Assembly: GCF_000737705.1 (NCBI RefSeq)
Contig: NZ_JPRH01000002.1
Coordinates: forward strand, 62,001 to 126,000
Reading direction: 5' to 3'
From: Chryseobacterium soli
Lineage (GTDB): Bacteria > Bacteroidota > Bacteroidia > Flavobacteriales > Weeksellaceae
Length of the DNA: 64,000 nucleotides
Position 1 is the first letter of the stretch. Each line of letters starts with the position of its first letter. A program made the translations under genes and the position numbers. Below the pieces are notes generated by a model. It had not been told where the DNA came from, did no database searches, and saw only the letters and a list, made by a program, of their open reading frames with translations. This document shows positions 1,605 to 55,399 of this stretch, one piece after another.

Positions 1605-2786
1605 ATGGAAATGCAGAAAGACTTTTTTATATATCAGGCACAGACCACACAATTTGCAGCAGGTTTTGAAGTTGAAAAGGCATCAGGAAGCTATATTTAT
1701 GGCACAGACGGTAGAAAATACCTTGATTTTGTGGCAGGAGTTTCTGCCAATACATTGGGGCATTCCCATCCTAAAATTGTTGAGGCTATAAAAGAACAGG
1801 CAGATAGATACCTTCATGTAATGGTGTATGGCGAATATGCTCAGGAAAAGCCGGTTGCGCTATGCCGTTTGCTGGCCGAAGCGACCCCGGATCCGCTTGA
1901 AATTACCTACCTGGTGAACAGTGGGGCCGAGGCTATCGACGGAAGCCTGAAACTTGCCAAAAGGTACACCGGAAGAGAAGAAATTGTTTCATTTAAGGAT
2001 TCCTACCATGGAAATACCCATGGTGCATTAAGCGTTTCCGGAAACGAAACCCATAAAAGGGAATTCCGTCCGTTACTGCCTATGATTTCTTTCATTGAAT
2101 TCAATAATGAGAATGACTTTGACAAGATTACTGAAAAAACAGCATGTGTTATCCTGGAAACCATTCAGGGAGCCGCAGGTTTTCTGGTACCCAATCATGA
2201 TTATCTGATCAAGCTAAAAAAGAGATGCGAAGAAGTAGGAACTCTTTTAATTTTAGATGAAATACAGCCGGGATTCGGAAGAACAGGAAAACTGTTTTCT
2301 TTTGAGCATTTTGGGATCGTTCCTGATATTTTGGTGATGGGTAAAGGTATGGGCGGTGGAGTTCCCGTTGGAGCTTTTATGAGCTCCCGTGAAATCATGA
2401 GTACCTTATCTCATTCTCCTAAATTAGGACACATTACCACTTTTGGAGGAAACCCTTTAATTGCAGCATCCAGCTACGCGACATTGAAAGAAGTGTTAGA
2501 TAGTGGTTTGATGAATGAAGTACAGGAAAAAGAAAATCTTTTCAGGGAACTTTTGGTTCATCCAAAAATTAAAAATATCAACGGAATGGGGCTGATGCTT
2601 GCCGTGAACCTTGGCTCTCCGGAATACACTCTGGAAGTTGCCAAAAAATGCATGGAGAAAGGCCTGATCGTTTTCTGGCAGCTATACAGAAATGAATATT
2701 TAAGAATCTCACCCCCGCTTACCCTTTCTCTTGATGAAATCAGAGAAGGATGCCGGATTATTCTGGAGGTGCTGAACGAAAACTAA
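1605..2786 (+). CDS. Class III (ornithine/acetylornithine-type) aminotransferase
   Basis: PLP-dependent fold-type I aminotransferase, about 393 residues from the ATG at 1605; a TTG at 1584 and an ATG at 1611 are alternative starts. Visible family features are NSGAEAIDGSLKLAKRYTG (cofactor phosphate region), the SYHGNTHG motif, LILDEIQPGFGRTG with the pyridine-N Asp at about residue 218, and GKGMGGG with the Schiff-base Lys at about residue 247. The family moves amino groups between omega-amino acids such as ornithine, acetylornithine or 4-aminobutyrate and 2-oxoglutarate. The substrate cannot be read from sequence, and no arginine-biosynthesis genes are nearby. It is a single-gene unit between two terminators. 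Confidence 0.9.
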   Translation: MEMQKDFFIYQAQTTQFAAGFEVEKASGSYIYGTDGRKYLDFVAGVSANTLGHSHPKIVEAIKEQADRYLHVMVYGEYAQEKPVALCRLLAEATPDPLEITYLVNSGAEAIDGSLKLAKRYTGREEIVSFKDSYHGNTHGALSVSGNETHKREFRPLLPMISFIEFNNENDFDKITEKTACVILETIQGAAGFLVPNHDYLIKLKKRCEEVGTLLILDEIQPGFGRTGKLFSFEHFGIVPDILVMGKGMGGGVPVGAFMSSREIMSTLSHSPKLGHITTFGGNPLIAASSYATLKEVLDSGLMNEVQEKENLFRELLVHPKIKNINGMGLMLAVNLGSPEYTLEVAKKCMEKGLIVFWQLYRNEYLRISPPLTLSLDEIREGCRIILEVLNEN

Positions 2787-16436: not shown

Positions 16437-17600
16437 TTATTTTAGTCTGTGGATTAATTCGACGAAAACATCAGGATCGGTCATTTTTATAGTACCAATC
16501 TGGACGCCGCCATTTTCAATCAATCTCCGCACCGCTGATTTGCTGAGGTCATTTTTAAGCTGATGACAAAGTTCAATTAATAATAATCTGTGATTATCAT
16601 GAGATAAAGAAGCAATAGAAACCGGTTCAAAAACTTTGTCTCCAACATTTTTACTTTGAAACTGACTGCTGAAAAATACTTCCGCAAGATCTGCTGATGC
16701 CTCATCATGGTATTGGCTGATGATGTTTTTTGCGATCAGCTTTTTGATGTTCATTGGATTTTCGCCGTTTTCTATTTTCAGCAGTATACTTTGCTTTTCT
16801 TCCACGGGAAAATCGGTGGTCAGATCAATAAATTCTTCAATCAAGGTATCCGGAATAGACATTATTTTTCCAAACATTTCATTTGGCTCATCAGTAAGAC
16901 CAATGGTATTATTTAGTGATTTACTCATTTTTTCTTTTCCATCCAATCCTTTTAATAAAGGCATGCAGATCACAATTTGCGGAGATTTTTTATGACTTTC
17001 CTGCAGCTGGCGCCCCATGGTACAGTTGAAAAGCTGGTCGGTTCCGCCCATTTCAATATCACATTCAATTTTTACAGAATCAAAACCCTGTAAAATTGGG
17101 TATACCAGTTCGTGCATGGCGATTGGTGTATTATCCGTAAACCTTTTATTAAAATCATTTCTGTGCATAAGCTGGGCAATGGTAACTTTTGACATAAGCT
17201 GAATCACTTCCGAAAAAGGTAATGCATCCAACCAGTCGGAGTTAAAAACAATTTTTGTTTTTTCAATATCCATCACCTTTGAAAGCTGGCTGATGTAGGT
17301 TTGTGCATTGTGTTGCACCTCTTCTATACTCAACGGTTTCCGGGCTTTATTTTTTCCTGTAGGATCCCCGATTCTGGCGGTAAAACTGCCAACCACAATA
17401 ATGACCTCATGCCCGAGATCCTGAAACTGTTTCAACTTTTTGAGCACTACGGCATGGCCGAGATGCAGATCCGGAGCGGTAGGATCAAACCCCAGCTTGA
17501 TTCTCAGTTTTCTATGTTCTTCCTTTGCCTGTTTTAATTTCTGCTCTAACCCGTTTTCAGGCAGAATAAAGGCTGTGTTTTGTTGTAATGTGTTGATCAT
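16437..17600 (-). CDS. tyrS: Tyrosyl-tRNA synthetase (TyrZ-like form)
   Basis: 387 residues, class I synthetase that charges tRNA-Tyr. The HIGH motif is HLGH in APDLHLGHAVVL near residue 46, and the KMSKS motif is intact in GKEKMSKSLNN near residue 230. The IGDPTGKNKARKPL segment and length favour the TyrZ-like branch over the E. coli-type TyrS. The C-terminal domain is S4-like (SAVRRLIENGGVQIG). Its 5' leader carries a Tyr-rich leader ORF and a terminator, so expression is probably controlled by tRNA-Tyr charging. Confidence 0.96.
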   Translation of the reverse strand: MINTLQQNTAFILPENGLEQKLKQAKEEHRKLRIKLGFDPTAPDLHLGHAVVLKKLKQFQDLGHEVIIVVGSFTARIGDPTGKNKARKPLSIEEVQHNAQTYISQLSKVMDIEKTKIVFNSDWLDALPFSEVIQLMSKVTIAQLMHRNDFNKRFTDNTPIAMHELVYPILQGFDSVKIECDIEMGGTDQLFNCTMGRQLQESHKKSPQIVICMPLLKGLDGKEKMSKSLNNTIGLTDEPNEMFGKIMSIPDTLIEEFIDLTTDFPVEEKQSILLKIENGENPMNIKKLIAKNIISQYHDEASADLAEVFFSSQFQSKNVGDKVFEPVSIASLSHDNHRLLLIELCHQLKNDLSKSAVRRLIENGGVQIGTIKMTDPDVFVELIHRLK

Positions 17601-17618
17601 TGAATAAGATTTTAGAAT

Positions 17619-17648
17619 TAAAAAAGCCCGGACAATCCTGTCCGGGCT
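17619..17648 (-). terminator. Attenuator terminator in the tyrS leader
   Basis: On the minus strand, AGCCCGGACA (17648-17639) pairs perfectly with TGTCCGGGCT (17634-17625) around a 4-nt loop and is followed by six T. It lies upstream of the tyrS start (17600) on the same strand and downstream of the leader ORF, so it would stop transcription before tyrS unless prevented. Confidence 0.88.
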
Positions 17649-17706
17649 CTATACTATTGTAGATTATTTTATACTAGATAATAGCGATAGAAAGTCTTCC
17701 CGAACG
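17638..17706 (-). promoter_or_regulatory. Antiterminator pairing segment for tyrS attenuation
   Basis: GTTCGGG (17705-17699, just after the last Tyr codon) can pair over 7 bp, one of them G-U, with CCCGGAC (17646-17640) in the 5' arm of the terminator. This pairing excludes the terminator. A ribosome stalled on the Tyr codons would leave GTTCGGG free. A ribosome continuing to the stop would cover it. The pairing is inferred by hand. Confidence 0.6.
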
Positions 17707-17769
17707 ATAGGCCGGGTAGTAATACTCGCTGAAAAAAGGCAAGCGCAATATGCTGTTTAAATGCTTCAT
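17674..17769 (-). CDS. Tyrosine-rich leader peptide of tyrS
   Basis: 31 codons from ATG (17769-17767) to TAG (17676-17674). The peptide begins MKHLNSILRL and contains SEYYYPAYRSG: three successive Tyr codons (17724-17716), then Pro, Ala and Tyr (17709-17707). Four Tyr among six codons is far above chance. It sits between a TATATTTG -7 element 8 nt upstream and the tyrS terminator, the layout of a ribosome-mediated attenuator. It is too short for normal gene calling. It may also sense Phe (two adjacent Phe codons precede), but the Tyr run points to tyrS control. Confidence 0.8.
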   Translation of the reverse strand: MKHLNSILRLPFFSEYYYPAYRSGRLSIAII

Positions 17770-17777
17770 TTGAAATA

Positions 17778-17785
17778 CAAATATA
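17778..17785 (-). promoter_or_regulatory. -7 element for the tyrS leader transcript
   Basis: TATATTTG on the minus strand, 8 nt before the leader ATG. Matches TAnnTTTG exactly. No strong -33 box is visible. Confidence 0.55.
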
Positions 17786-19302: not shown

Positions 19303-20313
19303 TTAGTTAGATCTATAGCCTGGAGCTGGTGCAGCGTCAGTTTGGTTTATTATATTTCCTTTGTCATCCACTGTTTTAGATCTGCCATATCTGTCGGTAG
19401 TTGTAACCTGACTTAATTTTCCGTTATGGTACTTATATTCTTTTTTTTCATTATTACTTTTACAAAGTTTATACGTAATAACATTTTTGCTGTCGTATTT
19501 TTCCTGACAGATATATTTTTCTTTATTTTTTGCGGAATTTTCATCCACTATTAATTTTTCTGTCGTCTTCGAGCCGTCTGTCTCATATTTGGTTTTGATG
19601 TTTTTATTTTCATCATTATATTCTTTGGTTTTTCCATTTGGGTAAAATGCGTGGTTGATTTTAGTAAAACTATTGATAACCCGCAGTACTTTTTTGCCGT
19701 CCTGGCTATAAATTGTTTTGATGGTATTGCTGTCTTTATCCTGTATACTATTATCTATTTTTATAGTGCTGAATCTATTTCCATTCGCATAATATTCAGT
19801 ACGAGTATAGATGCTATCTTCCCAGGTTTCATAGCATTTTTTTTCATGGGTGAACTCCGAACGAACCAGATTTCCGTCTTTAAAAATATAAAGTTTTCCT
19901 TTGGTCAATATTTTTTCAAAGCGTCCTTTTCTATCAATTGTAAAGAGTATTTCTTCTTTTTTAAAACCATCGACTATATTTTGGATTCGATAGGTTCCCT
20001 GGGAAAGGCTTACTCCTTCAGAGGTGTTTTTTTCCGTGTATTTTTTATATTCTTCTTCGGATAAGGCATTTTTTATTCTGTATTTACTGTCCTTATCCAG
20101 TATTTTGTCTTCGCAATCTTCATCACAGTAGACAATATACCAAATATCTTTTTCTGCATCTTCATTCGTATCGTAAGTCCATTTTTTAAGCGTTAAACGT
20201 CCTTCTGTAAGATAAGTGGCTTCAATAAAATAATTCTGACTCAGTGAGATTGTATCTTGCGAAAACAAGAATGATGAGATAAACAATGTTATAATGAGTA
20301 AGGTGGATTTCAT
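19303..20313 (-). CDS. Secreted YwqK/MORN-like repeat protein
   Basis: 336 residues. The N-terminus MKSTLLIITLFISSFLFSQ is a signal peptide with probable cleavage before residue 20. The body has many short Tyr/Gly/Lys-rich beta repeats, e.g. YYANGNRFSTIKI, FYPNGKTKEYND and YHNGKLSQVTTTD, like the antitoxin YwqK/MORN-type repeats of Bacteroidetes surface proteins. No catalytic motif is seen. Its start overlaps the stop of the upstream TetR gene by 4 bp (ATGA), so they are in one operon. Confidence 0.75.
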   Translation of the reverse strand: MKSTLLIITLFISSFLFSQDTISLSQNYFIEATYLTEGRLTLKKWTYDTNEDAEKDIWYIVYCDEDCEDKILDKDSKYRIKNALSEEEYKKYTEKNTSEGVSLSQGTYRIQNIVDGFKKEEILFTIDRKGRFEKILTKGKLYIFKDGNLVRSEFTHEKKCYETWEDSIYTRTEYYANGNRFSTIKIDNSIQDKDSNTIKTIYSQDGKKVLRVINSFTKINHAFYPNGKTKEYNDENKNIKTKYETDGSKTTEKLIVDENSAKNKEKYICQEKYDSKNVITYKLCKSNNEKKEYKYHNGKLSQVTTTDRYGRSKTVDDKGNIINQTDAAPAPGYRSN

Positions 20314-55073: not shown

Positions 55074-55399
55074 CACGAGAAAGTCGGCTTGTTGATTCCT
55101 GCTTCGGCAGGGGTAGGAAAGTCCGGACACCATAGAGCAGCAAAGCGGATAACATCCGTCACCCGTGAGGGTAGGACAAGTGCAACAGAAAGCAGGTACA
55201 GTTCGGCTGTAGTGAAACCAGGTAAACTCTTTGCGGTGCAATGATAAGTATATCGGTTCTTTTCAGCAATGAAAATAGGGGCGGCTCGCTCTGAAAGCCG
55301 AGGGGTAATCAGCTAAAGTATTGCAGCAATGCAGTACGCAGATAAATAACAGGCACTTCTTCGGAAGTACAAAATCCGGCTTACAGATTTTCTCGTGAT
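55074..55399 (+). ncRNA. rnpB: RNase P RNA (class A)
   Basis: About 325 nt. Conserved landmarks are the P1 helix pairing CACGAGAAA near 55074 with TTTCTCGTG near 55390-55398, the GGAAAGTCCGGAC core (P4 5' side and CR-I), the ACAGAAAGCAGG region, GGTAAACTCTTTGCGGTGCA, and the 3' AAAATCCGGCTTACAG element (CR-V). The ribozyme matures tRNA 5' ends. Exact ends are set by the P1 helix and the -7 element at 55062-55069. It is divergent from the ECF sigma operon and downstream of no gene. Confidence 0.93.

Follow-up and report, generated by a model that had tools for sequence, protein, structure and literature searches.

A putative tyrosine-codon attenuator with a conserved leader peptide upstream of a second tyrosyl-tRNA synthetase gene in Chryseobacterium

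A leader ORF and a terminator upstream of an auxiliary tyrS

The locus lies in Chryseobacterium soli (NCBI RefSeq assembly GCF_000737705.1, contig NZ_JPRH01000002.1), within a stretch of 64,000 nt, positions 62,001-126,000 of the forward strand, that was analysed as a whole and is called the window here. Its minus strand carries a gene for a tyrosyl-tRNA synthetase (TyrRS), the product of which matches the TIGR00234 equivalog with 326 bits (cut-off 113.8); the closest solved chains are 6bqy and 1h3e. An initial annotation, made from the sequence of the window, had named the gene tyrS. The family match bears out the name, with the correction that this is not the only copy: another TyrRS is encoded in the same genome (G000:C3:365829-366671), with 28% identity over query residues 34-298. 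Since the genome has two TyrRS genes, the one in the window is an auxiliary TyrRS, divergent from the other, which is presumably the housekeeping enzyme. No Tyr leader was seen by eye in the 350 bases upstream of that other copy. The features of the window's tyrS locus, in window coordinates, are as follows.

16437-17600, minus strand: tyrS, the regulated gene, encoding the second TyrRS (387 aa)
17785-17778, minus strand: promoter-like box TATATTTG, 8 nt before the leader ATG
17769-17674, minus strand: leader ORF MKHLNSILRLPFFSEYYYPAYRSGRLSIAII, 31 codons, with a homologous ORF at 125/125 loci
17725-17766, minus strand: leader codons 2-15 (KHLNSILRLPFFSE), the part conserved in amino acids by pN/pS and tree counts
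17716-17724, minus strand: Tyr codons 16-18, of which 16 and 17 are conserved and 18 is variable among 106 unique leaders
17711-17715, minus strand: segment 1, CCCGG, which in the full-leader fold can pair with segment 2 if free of the ribosome
17705-17699, minus strand: segment 2, GTTCGGG, predicted outer antiterminator strand, from its pairing to segment 3
17692-17687, minus strand: predicted inner antiterminator strand, TTCTAT, from the fold and pair counts
17652-17647, minus strand: partner of the inner antiterminator strand, from the fold and pair counts
17646-17640, minus strand: segment 3, CCCGGAC, partner of either segment 2 (antiterminator) or the terminator 3′ arm, from the fold and pair counts
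17650-17620, minus strand: intrinsic terminator (arms 17650-17639 and 17634-17623, T run 17625-17620), from sequence and covariation

The initial annotation had already described the short ORF with its Tyr codons, the promoter element in front of it and the hairpin with six T between it and tyrS, and all of these could be read directly. The terminator is a perfect 10-bp hairpin (AGCCCGGACA/TGTCCGGGCT), or 12 bp counting additional G.U and A-U pairs, and its T run lies 19 nt before the tyrS ATG at 17600. The pairing proposed there between 17705-17699 and 17646-17640 is likewise correct in its coordinates, GTTCGGG being complementary to CCCGGAC with one G.U pair. Beyond that proposal, we find that the antiterminator has a second helix, in which 17692-17687 pairs with 17652-17647. 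The locus therefore combines the elements expected of an attenuator: an ORF with Tyr codons, an intrinsic terminator and a predicted alternative pairing that excludes the terminator. The promoter-like box matches TAnnTTTG, given as the Bacteroidota -7 consensus in the accessible text of PMC9723704. This strict consensus lies at most 25 nt from the leader ATG in 62 of the 106 unique leaders, and many of the other 44 show TAnnTTTA by eye.

Distribution of the gene and its leader

We read 125 loci for this type of TyrRS: the window, 44 loci from a survey of the family (one genome, G049, being represented twice, as L149 and L158) and the 80 best named of 440 relatives, from Chryseobacterium, Flavobacterium, Gelidibacter, Arenibacter, Vaginella, Weeksella and one further Weeksellaceae record. 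Where listed, identity to the window's protein was at least 68%. The leader is present at all 125 loci, with a GTG start at one of them (L003), which was excluded from the counts; the named and family sets overlap, and the 124 ATG-started leaders reduce to 106 unique sequences. The ORF, its Tyr codons, the complementary segment and the hairpin recur at every locus, which places the arrangement beyond chance. The absence of a Tyr-rich ORF from the same place in relatives, which the initial annotation had named as evidence that would count against an attenuator, was not encountered.

In the family survey the gene was found in 45 of 197 genomes. Reading confirmed the leader in 44 of them, and in the remaining genome (G099) it is known from a pattern match just upstream of the gene. 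A strict leader pattern adjoins the gene in 43 of the 45, the other two carrying variants: LPYF in G018 and a single Tyr codon in G049. The latter genome keeps RVPFFSEY, with one Tyr codon at the stall site (EYLLPI), and its segment 2 and terminator are intact. Across the order, the gene occurs in 22 of 395 genomes, every one in the window's genus, and its distribution is patchy. In a quick tree of the TyrRS proteins, Chryseobacterium 39-10 and C. tagetis group with Gelidibacter, Arenibacter and Vaginella (support 86-94, not starred), a placement that points to joint movement of gene and leader. Five genes that flank tyrS in the window were found at 38-52 of 80 loci, counts in which distant neighbours are underestimated as the flanks spanned 3 kb; the ORF at 19303 was found within these 3-kb flanks at none of the 80. 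In one group of eight leaders (L162-L166, L168, L170 and L171) the front MKFLQHILRLPFFSTYYRTxFAR is shared, and in seven of them the match between segment 2 (TGCTCGGGT) and the terminator arm extends over nine bases. At another locus (L062) the Tyr leader is closely preceded by a TPP riboswitch (2613-2717, minus strand), which is encoded on the other strand.

More distant homologues are common in the phylum, where 272 of 395 genomes match the TyrRS at E 1e-60; the matches listed, besides three of the window's genus, have 42-48% identity. Of 27 such loci fetched, five gave no usable frame, and the leader was absent at all 22 others. Plasmid records held only homologues below 60% identity (13 records).

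The same peptide was also sought away from the gene. In the C. soli genome, the pattern [LF][RS][LF]PFF gave 10 matches against seven for its reverse; all were read, and only the tyrS leader qualified. Among the 197 family genomes, 43 of 50 pattern matches adjoin the gene and the other seven, compared with 11 for the reversed pattern, were read without finding a leader. The 395 phylum genomes gave 29 matches, three adjoining the gene; none of the other 26 was convincing on reading, one of them (L204) occupying the last part of an open frame of 67 residues. When the pattern was searched without the Tyr codons in the 395 order genomes, 83 matches were obtained, 21 of them at 21 of the 22 gene-bearing genomes. 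The 62 elsewhere stand against 15 for the reversed pattern, an excess for which chance alone does not suffice and which may reflect ordinary coding frames. None of the 30 of these that were read was convincing, four being short frames in which a Met precedes the motif.

Alternative structures and ribosome register

Pairing was counted in two alignments, one of 27 Chryseobacterium-type sequences and one of 15, which together hold 42 of the 106 unique leaders (46 were prepared, and L062, L143, L149 and L167 left out). In the 27 sequences, 98.5% of terminator cells are paired, with 12 double-changed cells, and the paired fraction, the number of double-changed cells and the covariation score were each reached in 0 of 500 shuffles; the remaining two of five measures, double-changed pairs and pair types, did not rise above shuffles (373/500). 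A hairpin with five T in six is found in 100 of the 106 leaders, the other six having a hairpin with TTTT only.

The predicted antiterminator is also kept. In both alignments 100% of the cells of its outer helix are paired, and in the 27 sequences 91.8% of those of its inner helix, while slid versions reach at most 51% (27 sequences) and 56% (15 sequences). The 27 sequences contain no compensatory change in the antiterminator, and no measure exceeds shuffles there, because segment 2 hardly varies. In the 15 sequences two measures, paired fraction and covariation score, exceed shuffles (3/500), with one double-changed pair that is present in slid versions too. Over all leaders, segment 2 reads GTTCGG in 81 and GCTCGG in 25, each time with the fitting segment 3 and with no mixed combination (0/106), so that segments 2 and 3 are complementary in 106/106. 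This compensatory change amounts to only two steps on the tree and is therefore weak evidence of covariation; six steps occur at an A/G position of segment 3, which faces a U of segment 2 that pairs with both. We considered antiterminator covariation as strong proof of the switch and rejected it, since the tree shows only two state changes and the 27 sequences nothing in excess of shuffles. Judged from these alignments, the terminator covaries, and the antiterminator is kept with little covariation.

To place the Tyr codons relative to these structures, the ribosome was positioned on 99 leaders in a folding model and the RNA made before the terminator 3′ arm was folded. The mean probability of the antiterminator, P(2:3), was 0.74-0.81 with codons 9-14 in the A site and 0.99 with codons 15-17, and exceeded 0.5 in 99 of 99 leaders when either Tyr16 or Tyr17 occupied the A site. 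Past Tyr17 it fell to 0.30 at codon 18 and 0.05 at codon 19 and stayed at or below 0.01 to codon 29, followed by 0.27-0.40 at codons 30-35 and about 0 at codons 36-38 (at most eight leaders). The values for Tyr16 and Tyr17 held at 0.85-1.00 when the ribosome edge was moved from P+12 to P+18 (every second leader, 51). The model thus places Tyr16 and Tyr17 at or near the last positions where a stalled ribosome would leave segment 2 free. The nascent antiterminator, however, has a mean P of 0.46 with no ribosome at all and is also favoured by stalls at codons 9-15 (0.74-0.99), so that any specificity would have to come from the Tyr codons themselves.

Equilibrium folding was rejected as support for antitermination. 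For the full-length RNA with the ribosome at Tyr16 it favours the terminator (mean P 0.93, compared with 0.0009 for the antiterminator), and the switch must therefore be kinetic. A kinetic decision is usual for attenuators. In the footprint model, a ribosome at the stop codon does not cover segment 2 in most leaders: 69 of 106 have their stop at codon 32 or 33, where mean P(2:3) is 0.31-0.33 among leaders reaching that codon. Such coverage varies among known attenuators and is not taken here as defining. The trp, phe and his attenuators of E. coli work by 1:2, 2:3 and 3:4 pairing, and the Tyr leader would use the same logic; in E. coli trp the terminating ribosome covers segment 2, whereas in the Tyr leader segment 2 lies inside the ORF and the stop is usually well downstream.

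Conservation, complementarity, the register in the folding model and the covariation of the terminator together support the attenuator proposed in the initial annotation. In all likelihood the leader is a ribosome-mediated transcription attenuator through which the level of charged tRNA-Tyr governs the auxiliary TyrRS; attenuation through the Tyr codons is very likely, and the spare TyrRS is probably made mainly when tyrosine-charged tRNA is short. From these data we infer translation of the leader, stalling and antitermination in the cell, the nature of the signal and any role of the peptide. Transcription would start near the leader ATG, as the promoter-like box suggests, and a ribosome would translate the leader behind RNA polymerase. 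At low tRNA-Tyr charging it would stop once Tyr codon 16 or 17 had entered the A site, covering segment 1 and ending just short of segment 2, which could then pair with segment 3 before the terminator 3′ arm exists, so that the polymerase would enter tyrS. With Tyr available, the ribosome would pass over segment 2; once it is past, segments 1 and 2 could refold together, and segment 3 would pair with segment 4 and cause termination. At the moment of stalling, the exit tunnel would hold the conserved part of the peptide (KxLNxILRLPFFSx), which may make the stall longer or sharper.

The leader peptide and competing explanations

The leader ORF is under two kinds of constraint, its front being kept as peptide and its back as RNA. 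Among the 106 unique leaders, which comprise 78 distinct versions of codons 1-17, Tyr16 is present in 106 and Tyr17 in 105. The front before them reads MKxLNxILRLPFFSx. At codons 4-13, pS is 0.65 and pN 0.08 (ratio 0.13; 0.16 over codons 2-17), and the ratio is 0.07 in the Chryseobacterium type (47 sequences) and 0.19 in the rest (32 sequences), with synonymous sites varying widely (pS 0.60-0.73); these ratios are uncorrected and pooled over non-independent pairs, and counts on the tree are the safer evidence. On the TyrRS tree, codons 2-17 underwent 243 codon changes and 57 amino-acid changes, 44 of the latter at positions 3, 6, 14 and 15, and the residue is fixed at positions 2, 8, 11, 13 and 16. 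Codon 16 (window 17724-17722) is TAT in 106/106, with zero codon changes on the tree, and codon 17 has 20 changes. Behind the Tyr codons, pN/pS is 0.96 over codons 18-25, codons 23-25 are near-invariant (pS 0.05, 67 rows), and segment 2 is read in three frames among species in ORFs of 24-37 codons. The RNA rather than the peptide is therefore kept there. Purifying selection on the first 17 codons would also be expected if the ORF encoded a functional small protein and the terminator merely set a constant ratio, but a C-terminal half that varies in frame and length (24-37 aa) while its RNA is kept, and a segment complementary to the terminator arm in every leader, make this most improbable.

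The hisG leaders of the same clade provide a comparison. A His-rich short ORF lies upstream at all 16 hisG loci examined, including that of C. soli itself (MKPNFLTLHHYYHHLC, at about 1295-1450 of L265, upstream of hisG at G000:C10:214004), and a hairpin with a T run was seen by eye in the two leaders L265 and L260. Outside the genus the hisG leader starts are unrelated (MFINQL, MFFN, MNINRL, MKNILL); within it, pN/pS is 0.30 over codons 2-8, from only eight distinct sequences. On this comparison, attenuator-type leaders look ordinary in the clade, whereas a front as long and conserved as that of the Tyr leader stands out, with the proviso that the comparison is small and that the Tyr gene may have spread after hisG diverged. 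The strong conservation of the start of the leader peptide, which is unusual, is what is new here. Conserved nascent-chain residues directly before the stall site are also found in arrest peptides, and since the front residues are under strong amino-acid constraint, the pattern suggests that the nascent peptide helps the ribosome to stall. Peptide-assisted stalling is plausible.

How far the peptide matters is where the leading explanations part. There is about an even chance that the leader is a plain Tyr attenuator in which the peptide plays no role, its conservation stemming from initiation codon context, peptide turnover or recent horizontal spread. The hisG leaders, which lack such an N-terminal motif, fit this, as does the leader-peptide attenuation proposed for flavobacterial biosynthetic operons in the accessible part of PMC9723704; the patchy occurrence of tyrS and the mixing of genera in its tree mean that its spread may be recent. 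However, a pS of 0.60-0.73 beside a pN/pS of 0.07-0.19 over codons 4-13 is explained neither by recency nor by nucleotide context, and the hisG leaders of the genus are less constrained, though the value of 0.30 comes from so few sequences. At the other extreme, the leader could encode an arrest peptide of the ErmCL or TnaC kind. Its nascent chain would recognise a small-molecule ligand, such as free tyrosine, a TyrRS inhibitor or a drug acting on the ribosome, and arrest would follow at Tyr16/17, whose Tyr codons would matter as residues rather than as charging sensors. The strong amino-acid constraint does stop at the stall site, G049 retains RVPFFSEY though its second Tyr codon is lost, and the regulated enzyme belongs to the auxiliary synthetases, among which PMC9437257 describes resistance enzymes. 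A TyrRS target together with Tyr codons at the stall site is nevertheless more simply explained by a charging sensor, and we regard the arrest peptide as improbable. Between these lies a combination that we put forward tentatively, at somewhat below an even chance: a tRNA-charging attenuator whose stall is primed by the nascent-chain motif KxLNxILRLPFFSxY, so that the ribosome is hypersensitive at Tyr16 and two Tyr codons suffice, with promoter, peptide, switch and TyrRS travelling between genera as a module that would confer inducible tolerance of TyrRS inhibition. If this combination holds, the invariant UAU at Tyr16 (106/106) would be part of the sensor.

Direct reading of tRNA by a T box or another riboswitch has a precedent in the second TyrRS of Bacillus subtilis, which is T-box regulated according to the title of a work cited in PMC9437257. 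Here, by contrast, no Rfam family reached its gathering score at the leader or at eight related leaders. Matches below threshold (E up to 5) included the Leu, His and Thr operon leaders, and the T-box covariance model gave no match at the leader even at that level. We consider such a riboswitch exceedingly unlikely. To our knowledge, Bacteroidota are without T boxes.

Flavobacterial attenuators, and an attenuated auxiliary synthetase elsewhere, have already been reported. For Flavobacterium psychrophilum, the accessible part of PMC9723704 presents strong indications that amino-acid biosynthesis operons are controlled by leader-peptide attenuation and mentions structured 5′ UTRs of aminoacyl-tRNA synthetases generally, naming alaS and, in that part, not tyrS. 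That organism belongs to the same order, and the C. soli genome likewise has a His leader before hisG; its attenuators, however, concern biosynthetic operons and short leaders, whereas the Tyr leader precedes an auxiliary TyrRS and encodes a long, conserved peptide. Duplicated synthetases, among them B. subtilis TyrZ and an indolmycin-resistant TrpRS, are reviewed in PMC9437257, where tyrZ is a second TyrRS with a T box and a MarR regulator. The likeness to tyrZ lies in a second TyrRS under a control that reads tRNA-Tyr; the T box reads the tRNA directly, whereas here a translating ribosome would do so. Leader-like sORFs are mentioned for Bacteroides in the accessible text of PMC7366714. Our search of mostly open-access literature found no paper on this leader, a result that does not prove absence. 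In Streptomyces, an auxiliary TrpRS gene is reportedly under attenuation by leader translation; it resembles the present case as a second synthetase gene under such control and differs in responding to Trp rather than Tyr and in belonging to another phylum, and we know of no conserved nascent peptide in that system.

Little work has been done on riboregulation in this phylum, for which the Tyr leader offers a clean, well-conserved attenuator that would act on a spare synthetase. It makes testable the general question of whether leaders that sense charging also tune the stall through the nascent chain, and an inducible second TyrRS is relevant to tolerance of synthetase inhibitors. Elsewhere in the window, positions 55076-55399 (plus strand) match the bacterial RNase P class A RNA with 200 bits.
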